Shown here one piece after another: positions 31,088 to 43,595 of a stretch of 64,000 nt of DNA (positions are counted from its first letter, which is position 1; every line of letters starts with the position of its first letter). Made by a program: the position numbers and the translations under genes. The notes beneath the pieces were generated by a model. The model worked only from the letters and a program-made list of their open reading frames with translations. It did not search any database and was not told where the DNA came from. Origin of the DNA: Stanieria sp. NIES-3757 (lineage in GTDB: Bacteria > Cyanobacteriota > Cyanobacteriia > Cyanobacteriales > Xenococcaceae). Location: assembly GCA_002355455.1 (NCBI GenBank), contig AP017375.1:4703640-4767639 (forward strand), read 5' to 3'.

Positions 31088-32069
31088 GAACCCATTTGAG
31101 ATCTCACGAAGAGACTGAAAGCCGCTTAAGCATTAATCTGACGAAGCAGAGATCGATCTTGGCAGTCGCATGAGATAAAGTTCGCTCAACAGCGCGATTC
31201 TACAAGCGGAGGAAACCTCCGCGTATCTCGCGCTCAAAGTTTTTAACCAAACTTTTACAACGCTCCATCCAAGCGTTTGAGCGTTCAATCACCCAGCGAG
31301 CAACAGCAGGAACAAATCCAGATTTCCCTTGCGCTGCCTTCTCTTGTTTCGAGGGTTTGGTGGACAGTTCAAACTTGATTTTCGTCATGATCTCGGGATA
31401 AACTTGCTCCAATTGCTCAGTCAAATGTTCGGGATGATATCCGTGGTCTAGCAAAATAGTGAGCTTCGGAAGGTTAACGGGTTTTGACTGGAAATAGTCA
31501 ATATTTAGCGTCAGCATCTCAATCAATCCTGCATCATCCGAGACATTTGCTGGTGTGCAGTGGGTAAAGAAAGGAAATCCCAGTGTATCAATTGCCAGAT
31601 GTCTTTTAATCCCATTCGTGGCTTTGTAAAAACAAAAGCCTTTGGAAGCGACACTGGCATTACAGGTATTTTTCACGGCTTGAGAGTCAATGATTATTAA
31701 TGTTGTCCACTTAGGTTTTTTTTAACCTGCTGACGTACTTGTTCATGTAAGGCATTCATGAGCTTTTCAAACACCCCTACCTTTCGCCACTGCTTGTAGT
31801 GCCAATAGACAGTTGAGTAGGGAGGTAAATCTTTGGGCAAGTCTGCCCAATTACAACCATTTTTGAGTTGATAGAGTATTCCGTCAAGGATTTCTCGCCT
31901 TGTCCAATTGGCAGGTCGGGTTTGCTTCTTAGTCGGCAATATCTTAACTAACAGGGGTTCTAGAATTTCCCATTCTTCATCGCTAAGGCTACTGGAATAC
32001 TTCATGGTCAATGAATTTTGATACTTTCGAGAACTTTAAGTCCATACTTGGAAGATGTCAAATGGGTTC
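31088..32069 (-). mobile_element. IS5-family insertion sequence, 982 bases, in DUF423
   Basis: Both ends read inward GAACCCATTTGA, then one mismatch and ATCT, a 16-base inverted repeat with a single difference. The element is flanked by TATA at 31084-31087 and 32070-32073, the target duplication. It encodes one transposase in two overlapping frames. Both ends, the duplication and the frames look whole, so the insertion is probably recent. Confidence 0.9.
31200..32011 (-). CDS. IS5-family transposase made by -1 frameshift
   Basis: The first frame (32011-31697, 104 residues: YSSSLSDEEWEILEPLLVK, PPYSTVYWHYKQWRKVGVF) is the DUF4096-like N-terminal domain. The second frame (to 31200) has the DDE catalytic core: IDSQAVKNT, LLDHGYHPEHL and ERSNAWMERCKSLVKNFER. 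The frames overlap at 31721-31715, where the mRNA reads A-AAA-AAC in the zero frame, a standard -1 slippery heptamer; slipping there joins the frames exactly. The fusion is about 270 residues, normal for the family. The second frame alone has no good start. Confidence 0.85.
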
Positions 32070-34248: not shown

Positions 34249-36231
34249 TTATTTTTTCCCAGTCAGTAAATAAGTTTTCATTTCGCCTTTTCCTTTGACA
34301 TTAATTAGACCTCTAGTTTGAAAATAATATTTGTCTTTTAATAACTCATAGGTAGTAGCACTAACTTGAATAGTATCAGGTATTCCTTGAGATTCCATGC
34401 GACGAGCAATATTAACTGCATCTCCCCACAAATCATAAGTAAATTTTTTGGTACCAATGATTCCTGCTACTACTTCTCCCGTGTTAATTCCAATTCTTAA
34501 ACTTAAAGTTTTATCTGTTTCGGCATTAAATTGAGCGATCGCTTTTTGCATAGCTAATGCCATTTCTGCAATAGCTTCAGCGTGATTATGAGACAGTTGA
34601 GGTAATCCTCCCACTACCAAATAAGCATCTCCAATAGTTTTAATTTTTTCTAACCCAAACTGTTCGCTAAGGCGATCAAATTCGGAGAAAATTTCGTTGA
34701 GAATTTCGACTACCTCGGTTGGTGGTAAAAGATTAAACCATTCAGTGAAGTTAACCAAATCGGCAAAAAGTACACTTACTGCTGCAAAATTATCGGCAAT
34801 TGTACTTTGTTGAGTTTGAAGACGTTTAACAATTAAGTCTGGCAAAATATTGCGGAGTAGACTTTCGGTTTGTTGTTGTTGCTGTCGTAAAGCTAATTCT
34901 GCTTTTTGACGCTGAAGAAATTGACCGATTTGATTACCAATAGTTAAAAACATTTGCTGTAATTCTTGATCTGGTTCGATTGTTTGTTGACTAAAAAAAT
35001 TCATTACTCCTAAAACCAAACCATCATTAATAATTGGCATACTAAATCCTGCAACTAATCCAATTTCTAAAGCAAGATTTTGTCGTTGTGGTTCAATTAT
35101 TTCAGCAAGGTTATCAACACAATAAAATAATTGATTTTGCCAAACTTGACCAGCTATTCCTTCTCCTATTTGAAGTAGAAGTTGTTGAGTAATTGTTTTC
35201 AAATTAGATATTTCAGTTGAATTTTTAATTAAATCTGATTGAATCCAAGTTGTTTTACAGTGTAATAATTGATTTTTTTCAAGATTTATTAAATCATTTG
35301 AATATGGTAACCAAAATTCTCCCCATACCCAACTAAAATGCTCACAAATTGTTTTGATAATTTTAGGAGCAGCTTGTGTAAAATTATGACTATTAGCAAG
35401 AATTTGAGAAATATCATATTGAGTAATTTGTTTGTTTTGATAACGTTTGATTTTAGTAATATCTCGACCAAGATAAACGAAGTCATAAGAATCTTCTGAT
35501 TCTCTTTTAATAATTGAGCAAGCAAGACCAAGAGTTATTAACTGATTTGATTTGGTCTGAAAAGAAACTTCAAAATTTTTGAGATAATCGCCTTGACTGA
35601 GAAGATATTGTTGAATTTCGTCTAAAGGTAAATTTGGATCGGCAAGAATTTGAGTAATAGGACGCTCAATTAGTTCTGTTTGACTATAACCCAACCAATC
35701 TAAAGTAGTTTGATTAATGGCTTTAATAATTCCTGTTTCGGTGGTAACGATTAAAGCATCTGCCATAGCAGTAATAATTTGCTCATAATAATAATTAGAT
35801 TTAGCGAGTTGATTCAATAAAGAAGTTGATTCGTGAATTAAACTATATTCATTAAACTTTTGAGTTAAAATTTGTTCTAAATTAATCTGTTGAGTAACAT
35901 CTTCAATAAAAATGATTAAAGCTTGATGATCTGCTAAATTATATTTTTCAATATATAAATCGAAGTAAATGGTTGATTCTGAATTAATTTGACGATTAAT
36001 TGCTTTGAGAGAATAGTCTACTTGTTTTTCTTGATAAACATCGTTCAAAATAGCTTCATAACCCAATAATTCTGGTAAAACTTTTCTAATATCTACTCCT
36101 TTTTTTAAAAAATCAGGTTCTTCTAGAAAACGAATAAATTTTTCAGAATAGTCAATAATGGTAAAATGGCAATCTATAATGACGTATTCTATATGTTTGG
36201 GCAAAAAAACTTTAGCTGAAGTTAATACCAT
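34249..36231 (-). CDS. PAS-PAS-GAF adenylate cyclase (class III)
   Basis: In the 660 residues, an N-terminal PAS-like sensor (about 15-125) is followed by a second PAS (about 150-265, with ALIVTTETGIIKAINQTTLD), a GAF domain (about 275-440) and a class III cyclase domain (about 470-655). The cyclase has VSVLFADLVNFTEWF (metal Asp), EKIKTIGDAYLVVGG (adenine-selecting Lys and second metal Asp) and TYDLWGDAVNIARRM (adenine-selecting Asp, transition-state Asn and Arg). All catalytic residues are present, so it should make cAMP. No membrane segments. The first 125 residues closely parallel those of the histidine kinase at 40013-41497. It follows the GTPase gene. The start is ATG at 36231. Confidence 0.9.
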   Translation of the reverse strand: MVLTSAKVFLPKHIEYVIIDCHFTIIDYSEKFIRFLEEPDFLKKGVDIRKVLPELLGYEAILNDVYQEKQVDYSLKAINRQINSESTIYFDLYIEKYNLADHQALIIFIEDVTQQINLEQILTQKFNEYSLIHESTSLLNQLAKSNYYYEQIITAMADALIVTTETGIIKAINQTTLDWLGYSQTELIERPITQILADPNLPLDEIQQYLLSQGDYLKNFEVSFQTKSNQLITLGLACSIIKRESEDSYDFVYLGRDITKIKRYQNKQITQYDISQILANSHNFTQAAPKIIKTICEHFSWVWGEFWLPYSNDLINLEKNQLLHCKTTWIQSDLIKNSTEISNLKTITQQLLLQIGEGIAGQVWQNQLFYCVDNLAEIIEPQRQNLALEIGLVAGFSMPIINDGLVLGVMNFFSQQTIEPDQELQQMFLTIGNQIGQFLQRQKAELALRQQQQQTESLLRNILPDLIVKRLQTQQSTIADNFAAVSVLFADLVNFTEWFNLLPPTEVVEILNEIFSEFDRLSEQFGLEKIKTIGDAYLVVGGLPQLSHNHAEAIAEMALAMQKAIAQFNAETDKTLSLRIGINTGEVVAGIIGTKKFTYDLWGDAVNIARRMESQGIPDTIQVSATTYELLKDKYYFQTRGLINVKGKGEMKTYLLTGKK

Positions 36232-36394
36232 CTGCTTTGATTAGAAAAATATGGAAATTTCTAGTTTTACTATGCCCGATCGCTTTCTTAAAATTAATAT
36301 TGTTGAGTCAAAAAATTTGTCTCGAGAAGAGAAAGGTTATTTTAATGAGTTAGAGTCAGTAAAGATGTAACAGAGTTTATATGTACTTTAATAA

Positions 36395-36922
36395 TTAATT
36401 AAATTCCAAAATTTTAAGACCTAGAACTTCAAAAATTTGATTAACGTAAACTCCAGTTCTAGCAGAAGTTGTATAGGTTTTTACTACCTGGGGATGGTTA
36501 TCAAAATTATATAAACTAGCTAATTTCTGTAATTTTTCTGAAGCAATTAGATCCGATTTATTTAAAGCAACAATAGCAAATCCTTGAGGATTAATTTTGA
36601 GAAAAAGCTCAAGATGAGTTTTTATTCGATCTAAAGTTTCTTTGCGAGTCACGTCACCAACAATAATTGAACCGCTTGCACCAGTAATATAGTTAGTAGT
36701 AATCGATTTGAATTTAGTATGACCTTCGACATCCCAAATAATCAAATTGAGTTTTTGATACTCTTGTTCTGATGATAATAAAATTGATTTACGAGAAATT
36801 TTAACTCCGACAGTAGATAAATAATCATCACTAAATTTGTCTTCTACAAAACGACGAATTAAGCTAGTTTTACCTACACTAAAATCTCCTACTAAGCAAA
36901 TCTTTTTCGCAATTTCTGGCAT
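36395..36922 (-). CDS. Rab/Ras-like small GTPase
   Basis: This 175-residue single-domain protein has all G motifs: G1 GDFSVGKTS, G2 Thr in YLSTVGV, G3 WDVEGH, G4 NKSD and G5 TSA. The arrangement is that of eukaryotic-like Rab/Ras GTPases found in some bacteria. The catalytic Gln after DxxG is His, suggesting weak intrinsic hydrolysis or help from a partner. There is no C-terminal Cys for a lipid anchor. The frame opens at TTG 36952, but the ATG at 36922 (MPEIAKKICLVGD) gives the normal start. It sits between the transmembrane OmpA protein and the cyclase on one strand, so it may switch signalling between them. Partner proteins are inferred, not known. Confidence 0.88.
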   Translation of the reverse strand: MPEIAKKICLVGDFSVGKTSLIRRFVEDKFSDDYLSTVGVKISRKSILLSSEQEYQKLNLIIWDVEGHTKFKSITTNYITGASGSIIVGDVTRKETLDRIKTHLELFLKINPQGFAIVALNKSDLIASEKLQKLASLYNFDNHPQVVKTYTTSARTGVYVNQIFEVLGLKILEFN

Positions 36923-37056
36923 ATTTTCATAGTTTATTGGATTGATGAGCAAGCTTCTCGCAACACTCTCAATAATAAATTAAAAGTTAAAAATAACGCT
37001 CCGCGTGTGCCTACATCCCGAACTTTTGTTTAAACGGTGTGATACCGATGAATAAT

Positions 37057-39273
37057 TTATTTTTTTTTCGGCATCAAAGGTTCAAACTGCACACATCGAC
37101 TCAACCAGATTGGATCATCTTTGGTTATGTTAGGAGGGTAGTCTAAACTAAAAGTTACTTCTAAGCGTTTAGGATCTACTCCTTGAGCAACTAGTGCAGC
37201 CTTGACATTACTCGCACGCTCTTCGCTAAGTTGTTGATTTTTACTTCTCGAACCAAGGCGATCGCTATAACCAGTCAATCGCAAATTTAATTGTGGATAT
37301 TGCTTAAGAAAATTCTTAACATTCTTAATCTTACTATAAGTTTCGTCAGATTTTAATTGACTTACACCAAGCTCAAAGTACACTTGGGTATCAATTGTAG
37401 GTAATTGTTTACTAGTATTAATTACTACAGTGTCTACCCCAGGTATTTGCCGAAATGCGGTCGGTAGAAGTGGTAATTGACGCTGATCGAGAACAAATCC
37501 TGACACGGTAACAGTTGTTGCTTGATAACGACTTTGAATCGCTACATCTGGTAGTTGATTAACTAAATTGGTTACTCTTTGAACCTCTTGAGCAGTTAAA
37601 CTGAGGTCTGGTGGGATATTTACCGCAACAATTTGATTATTTAGTTCTAAATTAGCTTCTTGAGCAATTTTACTTGCGATCGCTTCTGCTTGAGTGCGAA
37701 GTCGCTCATTAGGTACTCTTCCTACTAACGTTAATTTACCTTTGGCAACAGTAGGAGTTAAACGATAAACAGATAATTCTGGTGCTGCATCTAAAGCGAT
37801 CGCAGTTTTTTGTTCAAAACGGTTAGCTACCTGACTACGATAGTGAATTGTTCCCCAAGGAATTAAAATACCACTCAGCAAAATAACTATTAACCAGAGT
37901 AGGGTTTTTGGAGAGCCTGATTTTTCCGAGCTATCGTTTACTTCGATTAGTTGTTGGAGTGAAGCGTCGATTGAATTAGGAATAGTCCGAGGATCGCCAT
38001 TATATTCTCGAATTTCATCGCTACATTGCAACACGATCAAACTAAGAATGTTGCGAATCTTTTCTCGATACTGTTTAGATGGATTGCCTTTAATTACTAT
38101 GGCGAGGTAACAGTATCCTGCTACTTCAATAGCTATTTGAAAGTTGCCATAATCGATTAAATCTAACTCTGAATCCGATGCCATACAATCATTAGCAAAA
38201 CTTCGGATCGCTGTTAGCATTCCTGCTACTAAATCTGCCTCTAAATGATATTCAGTGTGGGGTTGAATTTCACGAATGATTAAACCACTAGCTTTATGAA
38301 TTAAAAAAATAGCTTGAATCTGACAGTCAATCGCTTCAGAAAGAATTAATTCTGCTTCCGATACTCCTCGAAGTTTGGCTCGAATTTTGCGTTTAATTCC
38401 GTCAAGACTAAGAGTATTTTCAACCTTTTCATTGATTGATTTGATTACCTCTACCATATATTTGGAGATGGTATTGCCAATCACAGGATAAAGCGCATCT
38501 ACCATTGCGTCTTTTTCCAGTTCGATTTGGCTTTTAATCGCTCTCCCCATTTCTGAACCTAAAGCTTTTGAAATCGCATTGCGATCGAGACGAATTTGTT
38601 CTGTGATCGAATGAGCTATTTCTGGAGCGATCGCTTTGGCAATGGTTTGAGGCTCAATTTTGATTTTTTGGGTAATGGCATTAGGTAGAATTTCCGCGAT
38701 CGCCTCTGCCATACTTTGCGGATCTTTGCGCGATCGTTGTTTAATGACACGATCTATAACAGGAACGAGTGCTTCTAAAATAGATTCTTGAGAGTTTTTG
38801 AGTTGGAAACGCAATAATTCACTAATTAACGGTAATAAAGAATTCAGTGAATCAGCGATCTCTTTCACTTCAGATTGGTTACTGATTATTTGTTGCTCTA
38901 ATTTAACAATCGATTGCTGTATTTCTGTTTCTCTAAAAGAAGTGATCTCGGCAATCAAAGGTTGTTTAGGAATCGAATTAGCAAGCTTTTTTGAGGATTG
39001 AGGATGAGAAGAAGCAAAAGAAATAGAGGAACTAGCCTCGACACTTGGTTGAGGTGAATGCTGTTGAGGCGCAATTATTTTTTTTTTATTTCTATCGGAC
39101 GCAGAAGAATTAAAATTTAAATGATTAGCACTACTATAGGTAGAATGTCTGTTTTGTTCCCCTACCTCAACTTTTTGAGTAGATTCAGTTTCTTTTAACT
39201 CGGACAATAAATCTAGTAATTTGCCTAAAGATTCTATTGCTTGAGGATTAGATTGACTAGAATCATGGGTCAT
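37057..39273 (-). CDS. Transmembrane protein: helical repeats, roadblock/longin-like, BON and OmpA domains
   Basis: The 738 residues fall into parts. 1-120 is a low-complexity Ser/Gln-rich tail. About 161-275 holds four to five tandem amphipathic repeats of about 24 residues (IKIEPQTIAKAIAPEIAHSI, then IRLDRNAISKALGSEMGRAI, and so on). About 305-425 resembles a roadblock/longin fold (AIFLIHKASGLIIREIQP, DLVAGMLTAIRSFAND, IAIEVAGYCYLAIVIKG). One membrane helix is at 457-474, a BON-like domain near 500-550, and a C-terminal OmpA peptidoglycan-binding domain at about 627-735 (YFELGVSQL, LTGYSDRLGSRSKNQQLSEE). Roadblock/longin domains often bind or regulate small GTPases, and a Rab-like GTPase is the next gene, so a cytoplasmic GTPase platform anchored to peptidoglycan is a reasonable inference. 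The coiled-coil gene ends 17 bases upstream. Confidence 0.8.
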   Translation of the reverse strand: MTHDSSQSNPQAIESLGKLLDLLSELKETESTQKVEVGEQNRHSTYSSANHLNFNSSASDRNKKKIIAPQQHSPQPSVEASSSISFASSHPQSSKKLANSIPKQPLIAEITSFRETEIQQSIVKLEQQIISNQSEVKEIADSLNSLLPLISELLRFQLKNSQESILEALVPVIDRVIKQRSRKDPQSMAEAIAEILPNAITQKIKIEPQTIAKAIAPEIAHSITEQIRLDRNAISKALGSEMGRAIKSQIELEKDAMVDALYPVIGNTISKYMVEVIKSINEKVENTLSLDGIKRKIRAKLRGVSEAELILSEAIDCQIQAIFLIHKASGLIIREIQPHTEYHLEADLVAGMLTAIRSFANDCMASDSELDLIDYGNFQIAIEVAGYCYLAIVIKGNPSKQYREKIRNILSLIVLQCSDEIREYNGDPRTIPNSIDASLQQLIEVNDSSEKSGSPKTLLWLIVILLSGILIPWGTIHYRSQVANRFEQKTAIALDAAPELSVYRLTPTVAKGKLTLVGRVPNERLRTQAEAIASKIAQEANLELNNQIVAVNIPPDLSLTAQEVQRVTNLVNQLPDVAIQSRYQATTVTVSGFVLDQRQLPLLPTAFRQIPGVDTVVINTSKQLPTIDTQVYFELGVSQLKSDETYSKIKNVKNFLKQYPQLNLRLTGYSDRLGSRSKNQQLSEERASNVKAALVAQGVDPKRLEVTFSLDYPPNITKDDPIWLSRCVQFEPLMPKKK

Positions 39274-39290
39274 TGGTAAATAAGTAATAA

Positions 39291-39944
39291 TTAAATATTG
39301 TTATCATGGCTCTTTAAATTATTATCGGATTCTTCGGGCAGAATAAAATCGGCTTTTACCTGATTTTCTACAGCTTCTTTAAGATCGGGAACAAATTCCG
39401 ATCCTTTAACTTTCAAACATAATTCAAATAATACCTCGGCTAAATCAGCACGAGAAACCTTAGTTTCGGTTAAATCTGATAAACTCTTTTCGAGTTTTTC
39501 CAAAACTTGTTGTCTGAGATTCTTAATGTTTTCTTCAGATGCTTCGCGAGTTTTAGTTAATTCATTTTTGAGATAATAGGTTTCCTGGTTTAAATTATTT
39601 CGCAACATACCAATATTTTCAGAACTAAGTTTAGCTGTTGCTTGAATTTCTTGTCTTAGTTGACTAGTTTCTTCGTGAGTAGTTAAGCTCAAATACTTGA
39701 GTTTTTTTTCTAAAGAAGAAGTTGAAGCGTCAATTTTTTGAGTTAAAGAATTTTGCAAATCTTTCAAGCGATCGCTTACCACTACTTGAAATTGCTTTAA
39801 TTGTAATTCAAGCTGATTTAATCTTTGATCTAGTTGGTCAAAGCGAGTTTCATAGGCTTCAATTTTGTCCCCAAATAACAAATCTTGAAGATGACTAATA
39901 TTTCCTAATCTTTGACGCATTTCTTCTTTGGTAAGTTCGTTCAT
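39291..39944 (-). CDS. Coiled-coil protein of the GTPase cluster
   Basis: The 217 residues are almost wholly predicted coiled coil (FDQLDQRLNQLELQLKQFQV and similar heptads to about residue 160), with a small C-terminal part (KVSRADLAEVLFELCLKVKG) and an acidic tail. No enzyme motif. The ATG at 39944 (MNELTKEEMRQRLGNISHLQ) is chosen over the in-frame GTG at 39953 because GAGAGG lies eight bases before the ATG and overlaps the GTG. It is tightly linked to the OmpA-domain gene (17 bases), so it is probably a structural or scaffold partner. Confidence 0.75.
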   Translation of the reverse strand: MNELTKEEMRQRLGNISHLQDLLFGDKIEAYETRFDQLDQRLNQLELQLKQFQVVVSDRLKDLQNSLTQKIDASTSSLEKKLKYLSLTTHEETSQLRQEIQATAKLSSENIGMLRNNLNQETYYLKNELTKTREASEENIKNLRQQVLEKLEKSLSDLTETKVSRADLAEVLFELCLKVKGSEFVPDLKEAVENQVKADFILPEESDNNLKSHDNNI

Positions 39945-40012
39945 GGTTGACACCTCTCGATCTTAAAACTTATTACGTTTGGCTTGATTAAATTTTAATT
40001 AGTATCAATCCT

Positions 40013-41497
40013 TCAGCAGGATTGATTATTAACTGGCAAAATAACAGTGATTGTTGTACCTAATCCTAGTTTACTATCTAATTCGATTTTGCCTCCATGT
40101 AAATCAACCGCTTTTTTGACAATTGATAATCCTAAACCACTTCCTGGAATATCTCCTACATTGTTCGCTCGATAAAAAGAATCAAATAAGTGTTTTTTAG
40201 CTTCAACAGGAATACCAATTCCGTAATCTTGGATAATTATTTTAACTATTTCTTTTTCAGAAATATATAAAATTTTAAAGTCAATTTTTTCTTCTTGAGG
40301 AGAATATTTAATCGCGTTAGAAAGTAAATTGTTAATAATTAATTTTAAGATTTTTTTATCAGACCAAATCACTAAATGTTCTACATTAGTCGAAAATGAA
40401 ATATTTTTTTGATTGGCTGTAATTTTTAACTCTTTGATAATTCGCTGACAAACTTTATTCAAATTAAGCAGAGTAGGATTGAAAGTTAGTTTACCTTCTT
40501 CTGTTTGGCTGATTACTAAAATATCTTCAACTAAAGATTGCATATTTTGAGCAGCATTATTGATAGTGTTTAAATAAAAATTCCAATTTTCTTGAGAAAT
40601 ATTATTTTTATTTTGAGCCAAAAAATTAGATGCAATGAGAATACTACTTAAAGGATTACGAAACTCATGAGAAGCCATAGAAATAAAACGTGATTTAATT
40701 TCTCTAAGTTCTTTTTCTTTTTGTAAGGCTTGAAGTATTTCTGCTTCTGCTTGTTTACGAGCAGTAATATCTCTGCCAATATAAACACAATTAAAAAATT
40801 CTTTAATTTCTGTTTGCACTATTGAACAACTAAATTCAATTTCTCTTGATTCTCCTGTTTTTGTCTGACAAATAGAATCTATTTTTTGAACTTTATTGCG
40901 ATTTTTTAATAAATAATCATAAATTTTTTGATGGTTAAATTTATCATTTTTAATAATAAAACTAATTGTTTTTTTTGCTAATTCTGTTTGATTGTAACCA
41001 AAGATTTTTTTAGCTGCTTGATTTATTTGTTCGATTTCTCCCGATGGTGTAGTAATCAACAAAACATCACCCATTGAGGTTAAAATCTTTTTGGTGCAGT
41101 CTTCAAATCTTTTTAAAGTACTTAGTAATACTTCAGCTTCATTAACTTGTTGAACTAAGGATTGCTTCAGTAAAATTATTTCAGTAGTATCTTCAAGAAA
41201 AATAATTAAATTATTTTCAAGTTTTTTAATTAATAAATTAAAATATAAATGAGAGTTATGATTAACGTTACGAGCGATAGTCTCAAGCAAAAAAAGTTCT
41301 TGTTTTTTATTAAGAATTTGAGTCAAAATACGTTCTAACCCAATTAATTCTGGAAAACTCAGTCGAATATCTTGTCCAGGAATAAGATTTTCAGGAGATT
41401 CAGCAAACTTTTGCGCTGTAGTCGATCTCTGCAAAACATTTAAATTTTGATTAATTATTACATAATCTCTTTGATCGAAAATTAGTAACTGATTCAC
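40013..41497 (-). CDS. PAS sensor histidine kinase
   Basis: In the 494 residues, an N-terminal PAS-like sensor (about 5-120) resembles that of the adenylate cyclase of this cluster. A second PAS (about 135-250, ILTSMGDVLLITTPSGEIEQ) is followed by a HisKA domain with the phospho-acceptor H277 in MASHEFRNPL and a HATPase domain with LLSNAIKYSP (N box), DYGIGIP (G1) and GSGLGLSIVKK (G2). There is no membrane segment and no fused receiver; no response regulator is adjacent, so its target is elsewhere or is reached through the cluster. The start is GTG at 41497 with AAGGA nine bases upstream. It is the first gene of the minus-strand run. Confidence 0.92.
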   Translation of the reverse strand: MNQLLIFDQRDYVIINQNLNVLQRSTTAQKFAESPENLIPGQDIRLSFPELIGLERILTQILNKKQELFLLETIARNVNHNSHLYFNLLIKKLENNLIIFLEDTTEIILLKQSLVQQVNEAEVLLSTLKRFEDCTKKILTSMGDVLLITTPSGEIEQINQAAKKIFGYNQTELAKKTISFIIKNDKFNHQKIYDYLLKNRNKVQKIDSICQTKTGESREIEFSCSIVQTEIKEFFNCVYIGRDITARKQAEAEILQALQKEKELREIKSRFISMASHEFRNPLSSILIASNFLAQNKNNISQENWNFYLNTINNAAQNMQSLVEDILVISQTEEGKLTFNPTLLNLNKVCQRIIKELKITANQKNISFSTNVEHLVIWSDKKILKLIINNLLSNAIKYSPQEEKIDFKILYISEKEIVKIIIQDYGIGIPVEAKKHLFDSFYRANNVGDIPGSGLGLSIVKKAVDLHGGKIELDSKLGLGTTITVILPVNNQSC

Positions 41498-41727: not shown

Positions 41728-42063
41728 ATGAATCAGTCTCCTAATAAGTTTAATTTTAATGATGATGGCTTCAATTTTTCTGATTTAGAAGAAAAAGCTG
41801 CCAAAGAACTTGAAGAAATCGAAAATTTATCCCCTGAAAGCAGAGAAAGATTAATTATTCATAAAAAACAGCTTGAACGCTTAATTATTTATCTAGCTGG
41901 TTTGGGTTTGGGTTTAGGTTTATTATTGGCAATTGTTTTAATTATTGTGCTCAATAAGCTGGGAATGACAAAAAAGCCTTATGAATTACCACGACAAGAA
42001 AACGAAAAACTAGAACACATTCAATATCATCCTGACCAAGGCTCTTATGTCATGGTTTCTTGA
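41728..42063 (+). CDS. Single-pass membrane protein of unknown function
   Basis: In the 111 residues an acidic N-terminal part (FNFSDLEEKAAKELEEIENL) is followed by one strong membrane helix (about 51-75, IIYLAGLGLGLGLLLAIVLI) and a short polar tail. No family recognised. It is read divergently from the histidine kinase with a 230-base promoter gap. Its last codons are copied 50 bases downstream (30-base direct repeat). The start is ATG at 41728. Confidence 0.55.
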   Translation: MNQSPNKFNFNDDGFNFSDLEEKAAKELEEIENLSPESRERLIIHKKQLERLIIYLAGLGLGLGLLLAIVLIIVLNKLGMTKKPYELPRQENEKLEHIQYHPDQGSYVMVS

Positions 42064-42116
42064 CATATTTAAGTGTCTTGATTTTGCAAGGCTCTTATGT
42101 CATGGTTTCTTGACAT
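42037..42116. repeat. 30-base direct repeat over the 3' end of the preceding gene
   Basis: CAAGGCTCTTATGTCATGGT plus ten bases occurs at 42037-42066 and identically at 42087-42116, a period of 50 bases. The first copy contains the stop of the 111-residue gene. The second creates an ATG for an 83-codon frame to 42348 that looks fortuitous. Confidence 0.85.
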
Positions 42117-42347
42117 TTTGATCCCCGAAATACTAATAAATTCGTTGTTGAGCAATTCTTTTCCTCAGCAAGACTTGATCCCAACCCAGATATTTTTGTT
42201 ACATATAGTTAAGCGTTGTATTGCATACTCAATAAAACAAACCAAAGATAATAAGACAACACAGATAGGGAATATGCCCTACCGATTGAGTCTAAAATGC
42301 TGCCAACAGCTAATTGCCGTCTTAACTAAATCGGAGGCTGTAAATTA

Positions 42348-43595
42348 ATGGCAAGAGAACGTCCCCCTATAGATGAAATGACTTTACGGCAACTGAGAAG
42401 AGTTGCTAGCGAACTGGGTATTTCCCGTTATAGTAGGATGCGAAAATCGCAGCTACTAGCAGAAGTCAAACAAGCGATTCAAGAATTAGAACAAAGAAGA
42501 TTTTCTCAAAATCCTTTAATTCAAACCCAGGAGGAGCAACAAGTGGAAGCAACTAAATTTGACATAGGTCAAGACGATCGCGTTGGTGGTCCCTTATCAT
42601 CGGTTGATGAAGATTTAGGCGAACTCCCAGGTGGTTATGGAGAAAGCCGAATTGTCTTAATGCCAAGAGATCCTCAATGGGCTTACACTTATTGGGATGT
42701 TCCCAATGATCATAAAGAAGAGTTACGCCGTCAAGGAGGACAACAAATTGCGCTGCGTTTGTATGATGTAACTGATATCAGCTTAGAATATCAAGCTCCT
42801 CACAGTGTTCAAGAGTATCTTTGTGATGAATTAGCGCGGGAATGGTATTTACCTCTACCTGTTAGCGATCGCGATTATGTACTTGATATTGGCTATCGTT
42901 GTGCCGATGGTCGCTGGTTAGTTTTAGCGCGTTCTGTACCAGTTCGCGTTCCTCCTGTCTATCCTTCTGACTGGATCGAAGATGTTTTTGTCACAGTTAA
43001 CTGGGAAGAAGAGTTAGTAGGTAAAGCTGTTTATGAACTTGTACCTCCTAGCAAGAAACAACCTGTTACTGCTACTGGTGAAGGCACTAATGGTATTTAC
43101 GAACAAATCTTTGGTATGGCAAAATCTGCTGAAGCAATGCGCGTAGCAGGTTCTCTATTTGGTTCGATGCAGCAAGTACCAGAGCAAGCAGTTAGCTCTT
43201 ATATCTTCCCCTCTGGGGTTGGTATGTGGGCAGTACCTACCGTATCTGGATTAAATATGTCTGGTGTAGGTATGATGTCTGGGGTTGGTTTCTCTGCCTC
43301 TGCACCACCCATTCGTCCTCGCCAATTCTGGTTGATTGCTGATGCGGAACTAATTGTTTACGGTGCAACCGAACCTGATGCGACGGTTACTATTGGTGGT
43401 CGTCCAATCAAACTCAATCCCGATGGCACATTCCGCTTCCAGATGTCCTTCCAAGATGGTTTGATCGATTATCCGATTGTAGCAGTAGCTGCTGATGGGG
43501 AACAAACTCGTTCAATCCACATGAAGTTTAACCGCGAAACTCCTTCTCGTAATACTAATACTAAAGAAGAAGCAATCGAGGAATGGTTTGTTTAA
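42348..43595 (+). CDS. DUF4912 protein with Rho-N/SAP-like N-terminus
   Basis: The 415 residues start with a SAP/Rho-N-like helical motif (MTLRQLRRVASELGISRYSR, about 11-45), which often binds nucleic acid. A DUF4912 domain follows (about 95-230, with RIVLMPRDPQWAYTYWDVP and DYVLDIGYR), then a Gly/Met-rich linker and a C-terminal beta-sandwich-like part (about 320-400, ELIVYGATEPDATVTIGGRP). The function of DUF4912 is not known to me. GGAGG stands 11 bases before the ATG at 42348. A terminator follows the gene. Confidence 0.75.
   Translation: MARERPPIDEMTLRQLRRVASELGISRYSRMRKSQLLAEVKQAIQELEQRRFSQNPLIQTQEEQQVEATKFDIGQDDRVGGPLSSVDEDLGELPGGYGESRIVLMPRDPQWAYTYWDVPNDHKEELRRQGGQQIALRLYDVTDISLEYQAPHSVQEYLCDELAREWYLPLPVSDRDYVLDIGYRCADGRWLVLARSVPVRVPPVYPSDWIEDVFVTVNWEEELVGKAVYELVPPSKKQPVTATGEGTNGIYEQIFGMAKSAEAMRVAGSLFGSMQQVPEQAVSSYIFPSGVGMWAVPTVSGLNMSGVGMMSGVGFSASAPPIRPRQFWLIADAELIVYGATEPDATVTIGGRPIKLNPDGTFRFQMSFQDGLIDYPIVAVAADGEQTRSIHMKFNRETPSRNTNTKEEAIEEWFV

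Follow-up and report, generated by a model that had tools for sequence, protein, structure and literature searches.

The question raised by this locus is whether five adjacent genes on the minus strand, encoding a histidine kinase (HK), a coiled-coil protein, a transmembrane OmpA protein (OMP), a Rab-like small GTPase (RAB) and a class III adenylate/guanylate-type cyclase (CYC), belong to one signalling system, and whether such a system has been seen before. The genes occupy positions 34249–41497 of the window, a stretch of 64,000 nucleotides from Stanieria sp. NIES-3757, and a reading made from the letters alone (the sequence-only reading) had put them forward as a candidate undescribed system whose members would act together, for example in motility or polarity. 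Gene order and co-occurrence bear out a conserved system. It is not undescribed, however, since Wuichet and Sogaard-Andersen (2014, PMC4316618) have described its core under the name of Group 1 Rup neighbourhood, and the window cluster fits every tested part of the description given in passages of that paper. What is new here, as predictions from models, is a longin-like fold for OMP residues 316–449 or so and an N-terminal PAS domain common to HK and CYC. The cluster consists of the following genes and parts.

40013–41497, minus strand: HK, histidine kinase, 494 amino acids (aa), with N-terminal PAS, second PAS, HisKA (2e-13) and HATPase_c (9.1e-27) domains (Pfam)
41084–41497, minus strand: HK N-terminal input domain, residues 1–138, a predicted PAS fold and then a long helix with Q112-x3-Q116-x3-E120
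39291–39953, minus strand: coiled-coil protein, 220 aa, upstream of OMP in most of the 80 best loci
37057–39273, minus strand: OMP, transmembrane OmpA protein, 738 aa, assigned from Pfam, relatives and alignment
38329–38958, minus strand: OMP residues 106–315, predicted helical, with repeats seen in alignment A1; helices of low confidence in the model
37927–38328, minus strand: OMP residues 316–449 (about), predicted longin-like domain, from AlphaFold2, Foldseek and VIA
37846–37902, minus strand: OMP residues 458–476, the lone strongly hydrophobic stretch, presumed transmembrane helix (highest 19-residue hydropathy, 2.3)
37663–37797, minus strand: OMP residues 493–537, BON domain, partial profile match (Pfam BON, 1.4e-7)
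37153–37380, minus strand: OMP residues 632–707, OmpA peptidoglycan-binding-type domain (Pfam OmpA, 3.1e-15)
36395–36922 (ORF 36395–36952), minus strand: RAB, Rab-like small GTPase, 175 aa from its ATG (Pfam Ras, 1e-26)
34249–36231, minus strand: CYC, class III adenylate/guanylate-type cyclase, 660 aa, with N-terminal PAS, PAS, GAF and catalytic domains (Guanylate_cyc, 2.3e-62)
35836–36213, minus strand: CYC N-terminal PAS input domain, residues 7–132, assigned by homology to the HK N-terminus

The five open reading frames (ORFs) lie where the sequence-only reading had placed them and are transcribed in the order HK, coiled coil, OMP, RAB, CYC, with intergenic gaps of 59, 17, 134 and 163 bases; three of these agree with that reading, while for the second, given there as 26 bases, measurement from the ATG at 39273 yields 17. 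The third gap, of 134 bases, presupposes that the GTPase starts at the ATG at 36922, and this start is used because a methionine stands at the same position in 91 of 103 distinct homologues. Above cut-off, Pfam finds PAS, HisKA and HATPase_c in HK, BON and OmpA in OMP, Ras and Roc in RAB, and PAS, GAF and Guanylate_cyc in CYC, and no Pfam family in the coiled-coil protein. The domain names given earlier are thus supported by family searches, except 'roadblock' for part of OMP, for which no support by sequence was found. HK also carries an H box and G boxes, as read in its sequence, and a specificity of CYC for ATP over GTP is our assumption from its residues.

Is the arrangement peculiar to one genome? 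The order of coiled coil, OMP, RAB and then one or more output genes recurs in filamentous and unicellular cyanobacteria, both in 50 stretches mapped in the relatives set (60 related genomes, labelled G) and in the best 80 of 239 matching cyanobacterial loci (labelled L), a set that favours similarity to the window and shares some genomes with the G set. In the 80-locus set, 78 loci have room for a GTPase gene downstream of OMP, and in 75 of them RAB is encoded there, in the same orientation and at most 600 bases away; the exceptions are L092, L155 and L156, and the median gap between the two genes is 3 bases. A coiled-coil gene stands no more than 700 bases upstream of OMP in 60 of the 77 loci that extend far enough (61/80 overall), and an output gene headed by the N-terminal PAS domain is present within the locus in 58/80. 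Conservation of gene order had been put forward by the sequence-only reading as one way to check its idea, and these counts show that the order is conserved. Among the relatives' stretches, 47 of the 50 hold a scorable OMP, with RAB downstream in 40 of the 47. Because the coiled coil is upstream in only 20 of 44 such stretches, the system is modular and the five-gene arrangement is one of its forms. Within the family of the window the cluster is often split: there are 18 unlinked kinase-type loci, 13 of which were fetched, and in 8 of these 13 the HK-type kinase adjoins a coiled-coil gene apart from OMP and RAB. Of the 13, L221 stops too close behind the kinase for a coiled-coil gene to be visible, and L230 belongs to a genome (82% complete) where searches detected neither OMP nor RAB.

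Do the parts also occur together where they are not neighbours? Genome searches used different thresholds (E 1e-10 for OMP, 1e-6 for the PAS domain and 1e-12 for RAB), and OMP relatives were detected in 45 of the 60 related genomes. Both OMP and RAB are present in 43 of these genomes, OMP alone in 2, RAB alone in none and neither in 15 (p 3e-12), and for RAB and the N-terminal PAS domain the counts are both in 39, RAB alone in 4, PAS alone in 3 and neither in 14 (p 9e-8). The PAS domain has 71 copies in all, only 37 of them no farther than 15 kb from RAB, and many of the contigs are short. When genomes with a linked PAS copy were left out, the counts became 18, 4, 3 and 14 (p 9e-5), where 17 of the 18 genomes with all PAS copies unlinked belong to the window's family. 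As a control, Robl_LC7 showed no association with RAB in the 60 related genomes (p 0.75). Furthermore, in a phylum sample of 146 genomes the OMP domain occurs in 19, RAB in 20 and both in 19 (p 6e-23). RAB precedes PAS-headed genes also without an adjoining OMP: in G153 it lies directly upstream of a PAS-headed GGDEF protein, and the RAB copies away from OMP in G088:C11 and G127:C1 are each directly followed by a PAS-headed gene, which suggests that the PAS domain has its partner in RAB itself. No fusion of the GTPase with OMP or the PAS domain was found among the ORFs of the window and 130 loci, and none of 26 pattern matches in viral contigs was a relative.

What do the two output enzymes of the window have in common? 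HK residues 11–124 and CYC residues 15–132 share 39% identity over 118 aligned positions (E 1e-23). The HK N-terminal domain is predicted by AlphaFold2 to have a PAS fold (mean pLDDT 87.6), and PAS domains are its best structural matches (Foldseek 3.8e-5; VIA Z 10.3 for photoactive yellow protein). Pfam does not detect this domain in the window proteins, its first PAS matches starting at residue 136 in HK and 148 in CYC. Iterated searches brought up 126 ORFs (118 distinct) with this domain in the window and loci; it always starts at or before residue 50, and in 121 ORFs before residue 20. The 118 distinct PAS-headed proteins were clustered to 62, and after removal of four of at least 1300 aa and of two short ORFs, 56 representatives remained (alignment A4), behind whose PAS domain lie HisKA in 23, a cyclase domain in 17, GGDEF in 7 and SpoIIE in 1. 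In the alignment of the domain itself (A3; 64 of 88 eligible domains and both window copies), HK Q112 is kept in 65/66 rows, Q116 in 64/66 and E120 in 64/66. Since they are spaced by four, these three residues are expected to share a face of the helix leaving the predicted PAS domain, and Q112 or Q116 may correspond to the published invariant glutamine of the Group 1 Rup output enzymes.

RAB has its closest sequences of solved structure in rab1a (2e-21) and Rab-22A (1.7e-20), and its G1–G5 motif positions are conserved across the 103 homologues. At position 78, the catalytic-glutamine position of G3, the window protein has histidine, and over the 103 GTPases this position holds H in 49, Q in 20, N in 11, S in 11, R in 4 and others in 8. 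Eukaryotic Rabs are anchored by prenylation. Prenylation is not expected in RAB, because none of the 123 RAB-homologous ORFs (duplicates not removed) has a cysteine in the last six residues.

What could hold such a GTPase at the membrane? In OMP, the predicted longin-like domain stands directly before the hydrophobic stretch 458–476, and the BON and OmpA domains come after it. In alignment A1, which comprises 27 sequences from the window and the 50 mapped stretches, the best conserved stretch of OMP is 236–315, with a mean column conservation of 0.75 as compared with 0.63 for 316–449. Of the aligned homologues, 26/27 keep D671 and 27/27 keep R686, two residues with a role in binding by OmpA domains of this type. 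The alignment of the OMP domain (A2) contains 66 of the 80 loci after a 93% identity filter, and AlphaFold2 was run on OMP residues 235–450 with 66 homologues. Its N-terminal helices are poor, while blocks within model residues 81–210 score 61–89. The model elements are E84-92, E98-102, H112-129, E137-141, E144-151, E154-161, H166-188 and H200-206, so that the predicted topology is the longin's beta-beta-alpha-beta-beta-beta-alpha-alpha; in addition, a short helix (72–80) precedes strand 1, and the C-terminal helix is short. The best Foldseek matches are clathrin-adaptor sigma chains, zeta-COP, Sec22b, Ykt6, TRAPP and Rag-Ragulator, 26 of them with E at or below 0.001. Among the 50 matches listed by VIA-align, the top one is Sec22b (Z 13.8, rmsd 2.7, 126 residues), followed by VAMP7 (Z 13.0), synbindin (12.5), Fuzzy-Inturned (12.0) and TRAPPIII-Ypt1 (11.8) and, further down, by a Lokiarchaeal longin domain (8yqg; Z 11.3), the SRP receptor (10.9) and Mon1-Ccz1 (10.0). 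MglB and LAMTOR chains are not among these 50, an absence which excludes nothing. The sequence-only reading had seen a cytoplasmic roadblock/longin domain at residues 305–425, which corresponds to the domain predicted here; the fold class stands, more precisely as longin-like, and its roadblock half found no support by sequence. A Robl_LC7 identity was rejected at the sequence level, since the profile has no match in the window's genome (G000) and hhalign gave the probability mentioned below. OMP residues from about 316 to 449 are thus predicted to adopt a longin-like fold, and we do not file them as a member of a longin family, because curated longin models are unmatched above cut-off and sequence support is little.

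The gene order extends beyond cyanobacteria. Almost the full length of the OMP piece 235–450 can be aligned to three rhizobial plasmids, with 28–29% identity and a best E of 3e-23. The plasmid of Mesorhizobium sp. WSM1497 has, in order, genes for a hypothetical protein, an OmpA family protein, a Rab family GTPase and an adenylate/guanylate cyclase, and BLASTP against these four gave 4e-8 for the coiled coil, 9e-29 for OMP, 2e-29 for RAB and 4e-53 for CYC (E values for a four-sequence target). The same four ORFs in the same order are given by an ORF search of the unannotated plasmid of Rhizobium sp. 007 (L216). At its N-terminus, the Mesorhizobium cyclase gives only a weak match to the PAS profile (12.1 bits), which falls for the most part on the D-x-T...Q...Q...E helix. 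As judged from its translation, the Mesorhizobium OmpA protein (L215, 7689–10754) has about four similar repeats of about 120 aa in its presumed periplasmic part.

Several loci are of interest in their own right. L074 (7211–10819) and L075 (9416–13027) are second OMP copies of about 1200 aa in a stretch without a GTPase, and their genomes (G027 and G058) also hold a complete cluster. In L063 and L077 (G019 and G013, of the window's family) OMP is seemingly in pieces or truncated. A contig labelled Candidatus Gracilibacteria (L123) encodes an OMP 51% identical to that of the window in the best segment, and is probably a mis-binned cyanobacterial contig. Four loci (L080, L247, L248 and L249) represent a divergent cluster type with an OMP of about 590–604 aa without a BON match and a GTPase of 39–45% identity; coiled coil, OMP and RAB stand in order in three of them, L080 ending near the OMP start, and in L248 and L249 the cluster is followed by a kinase of 372–374 aa without a match to the N-terminal PAS profile. 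At G001:C1:2861087-2862248, a Robl_LC7 gene adjoins a Ras-family GTPase gene, presumably an MglA/MglB-like pair. Around the cluster in the window, two neighbouring minus-strand ORFs at 31200–32011 (104 and 158 aa) presumably are two parts of an insertion-sequence transposase, a likeness judged from the sequence with no search made. On the plus strand at 41728–43595, divergent from HK, lie two genes, whose products are of 111 aa, with a single hydrophobic stretch, and of 415 aa; they have no family above cut-off in the libraries tried and also adjoin HK in G001, G005 and G010 (L031, L036 and L038).

How does the cluster compare with known systems? According to passages of the 2014 paper (PMC4316618), the Group 1 Rup neighbourhood contains, beside the GTPase, a coiled-coil gene and two further genes. 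One codes for a protein that combines a conserved domain of unknown kind with a membrane helix and an OmpA domain; the other codes for an output enzyme, as a rule a diguanylate cyclase/phosphodiesterase or a kinase, with an N-terminal region carrying an invariant glutamine. A conservon-like signalling system was proposed there, and no Rup member had been characterised experimentally as of 2014. The window cluster shares with it a Rab/Ras-like GTPase without the usual G3 glutamine, the coiled-coil gene, the cyanobacterial host, the OmpA protein with a membrane helix and the output enzyme with the invariant-glutamine N-terminus. In contrast, the window cluster has two outputs, one of them an adenylate cyclase, its unknown domain is predicted to be longin-like and its N-terminal region PAS, and a G3 glutamine is found in 20/103 homologues of its GTPase. 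The MglA/MglB polarity module also places a small GTPase beside a protein of the roadblock/longin class, but the window has no Robl_LC7 match, its GTPase is nearest to Rabs among solved sequences, and the partner is a transmembrane OmpA protein. Likewise, the operon of the actinobacterial conservon (cvn) joins a GTPase and a histidine kinase with a partner of the roadblock type (passages of PMC4316618), whereas the window lacks an MglB homologue by Robl_LC7 and has OmpA anchoring and a cyclase output. TRAPP, Mon1-Ccz1, Fuzzy-Inturned and the SRP receptor, all among the structural matches, combine a longin fold with a Rab-type or membrane GTPase; the eukaryotic longin-Rab exchange complexes are, however, multi-subunit, and the likeness of the window cluster to them is one of predicted structure, with no kinship detected at the sequence level. 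The listings, abstracts and passages returned by literature searches contain no paper that identifies the unknown OMP domain as a longin, and none that recognises PAS in the N-terminal region; in PMC9090330, cyanobacteria and Ras-like GTPases are mentioned in the reference list alone.

Considering these data together, we assume that the cluster is a Group 1 Rup system in which a wall-anchored longin platform recruits or regulates a soluble Rab-like GTPase that is in turn read by PAS-headed enzymes, an interpretation to which we give about an even chance. OMP would be anchored in the inner membrane through its predicted helix and to peptidoglycan through its OmpA domain, and would present the predicted longin-like domain to the cytoplasm beside the membrane helix. 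This domain would be a docking platform for the neighbouring RAB, controlling its nucleotide state; RAB, because it has no C-terminal cysteine for lipidation, would need such a membrane partner. The GTP-bound RAB would then be read by enzymes with the shared PAS domain and Q-x3-Q-x3-E helix, here HK and CYC and elsewhere also diguanylate cyclases, and the cell would in this way translate the state of its wall or envelope into phosphorylation and second messengers. For the coiled coil, whose closest tie is to the kinase, an adaptor role is probable. Gene order, co-occurrence and the homology of the two N-termini are observed and the two folds are predicted, whereas topology, recruitment, nucleotide exchange, effector binding, the direction of the signal and the physiological role are what we infer in this proposal.

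Several observations weigh against it. In the relatives set, no GTPase follows in the 600 bases after OMP in 7 of 47 loci, and no coiled coil precedes it in 24 of 44; an output gene stands between OMP and the GTPase in L070 and L071, and no GTPase was seen in L045, L074, L075, L078 and L079. OMP occurs without the PAS domain in five of the 60 relatives and the reverse in two, and G153, the sole RAB-only genome of the 146, has RAB without a detected OMP. Moreover, the p-values ignore shared ancestry and the two genome samples overlap. As for the fold, the longin-like model is a single AlphaFold2 prediction of moderate quality (mean pLDDT 71.0, pTM 0.58). An hmmsearch of A2 against the PDB gave two unrelated matches only (E about 0.5), and hhalign found no similarity of A2 to cyanobacterial Robl_LC7 (probability 0.1%). 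Pfam longin matches stay below cut-off: Fuz_longin_1 was hit in 3 of 67 A2 members (best 4.6e-4) and not in the window, and unrelated families scored nearly as high on these 67. When 32 of the 67 were scanned singly, two of the three members were recovered, L084 with 15.1 and L081 with 13.4 bits against a cut-off of 26.1, both over residues 115–189 of the piece, from helix 1 to helix 2, which is the expected place for a weak match of this kind.

Other explanations deserve consideration as well. If the five genes were neighbours without joint function, it would be natural that HK, the coiled coil or the cyclase lies elsewhere in many close relatives; but co-occurrence persists where the PAS domain is unlinked, the unlinked kinase adjoins a coiled-coil gene in 8 of the 13 fetched loci and the order is conserved into Alphaproteobacteria, all of which make this scarcely credible. 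It is improbable, to a lesser degree, that the OMP domain is an MglB-like roadblock rather than longin-like. A roadblock domain has an extra N-terminal helix, unlike a longin (passages of PMC10933270), and the short helix at model residues 72–80 before the first strand would suit this, as would the roadblock chains that also appear in the Foldseek list. However, longin-type chains lead the VIA matches listed and span model residues of about 82–215 including the C-terminal helix, Ego3 is the sole roadblock row recognised among the 50 listed (106 residues aligned with Z 9.9; for Sec22b, 126 residues with Z 13.8), and the missing Robl_LC7 match in the window's genome and the hhalign result speak the same way.

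Two further alternatives, both rather unlikely in our judgement and equally so, accept the system and change its wiring. The longin-like domain might serve the dimerisation or assembly of OMP, with RAB binding elsewhere, for example on the helical region 236–315, which is the better conserved of the two; against this, small GTPases are frequent binding partners of longin and roadblock domains (passages of PMC3521125 and PMC10933270). The co-occurrence of OMP and RAB (19 of the 20 RAB genomes in the phylum sample) does not separate the two regions as the site, because profile A2 spans both. Alternatively, the signal might run in reverse, the PAS-headed enzymes being GTPase-activating proteins (GAPs) or regulators of RAB and the GTPase the output. 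Q112 and Q116 are nearly invariant, the window GTPase has histidine at G3 and only a minority of its homologues glutamine, and such a role has been suggested in print, passages of PMC4316618 speculating that an unknown GAP provides in trans the catalytic glutamine which the GTPase lacks, and calling the N-terminal invariant glutamine noteworthy in this connection. Nevertheless, glutamine is present in 20/103 GTPases, and since the outputs are kinases and second-messenger enzymes, it would be less economical for all of them to act as GAPs.

What, then, would the platform proposed here mean for this family of systems? Passages of a review (PMC4917890) lump 'Longin/Roadblock' as present in bacteria, roadblock/longin proteins are considered probably archaeal in origin (passages of PMC10933270), and longins are held to be derived from prokaryotic MglB-like roadblocks (passages of PMC3521125). 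In an Asgard archaeon, small GTPase genes are generally not in operons with roadblock, longin or TRAPPC3 genes, according to passages of PMC10933270. Fold assignments can now be offered, as predictions, for two unassigned regions of the published and uncharacterised Group 1 Rup system, and the N-terminal PAS domain provides a tag for finding other effectors of the system anywhere in a genome. A stronger claim would be that this is a working bacterial Rab-longin pair which drives dispersed PAS-headed kinases and cyclases and shares ancestry with the longin-Rab pairs of eukaryotic traffic; we regard this as possible though doubtful. If it were true, Rab-longin pairing existed outside archaea and eukaryotes, and an operon of a bacterial Rab-like GTPase and a longin-like protein would make the age and origin of the partnership testable with two purified proteins.

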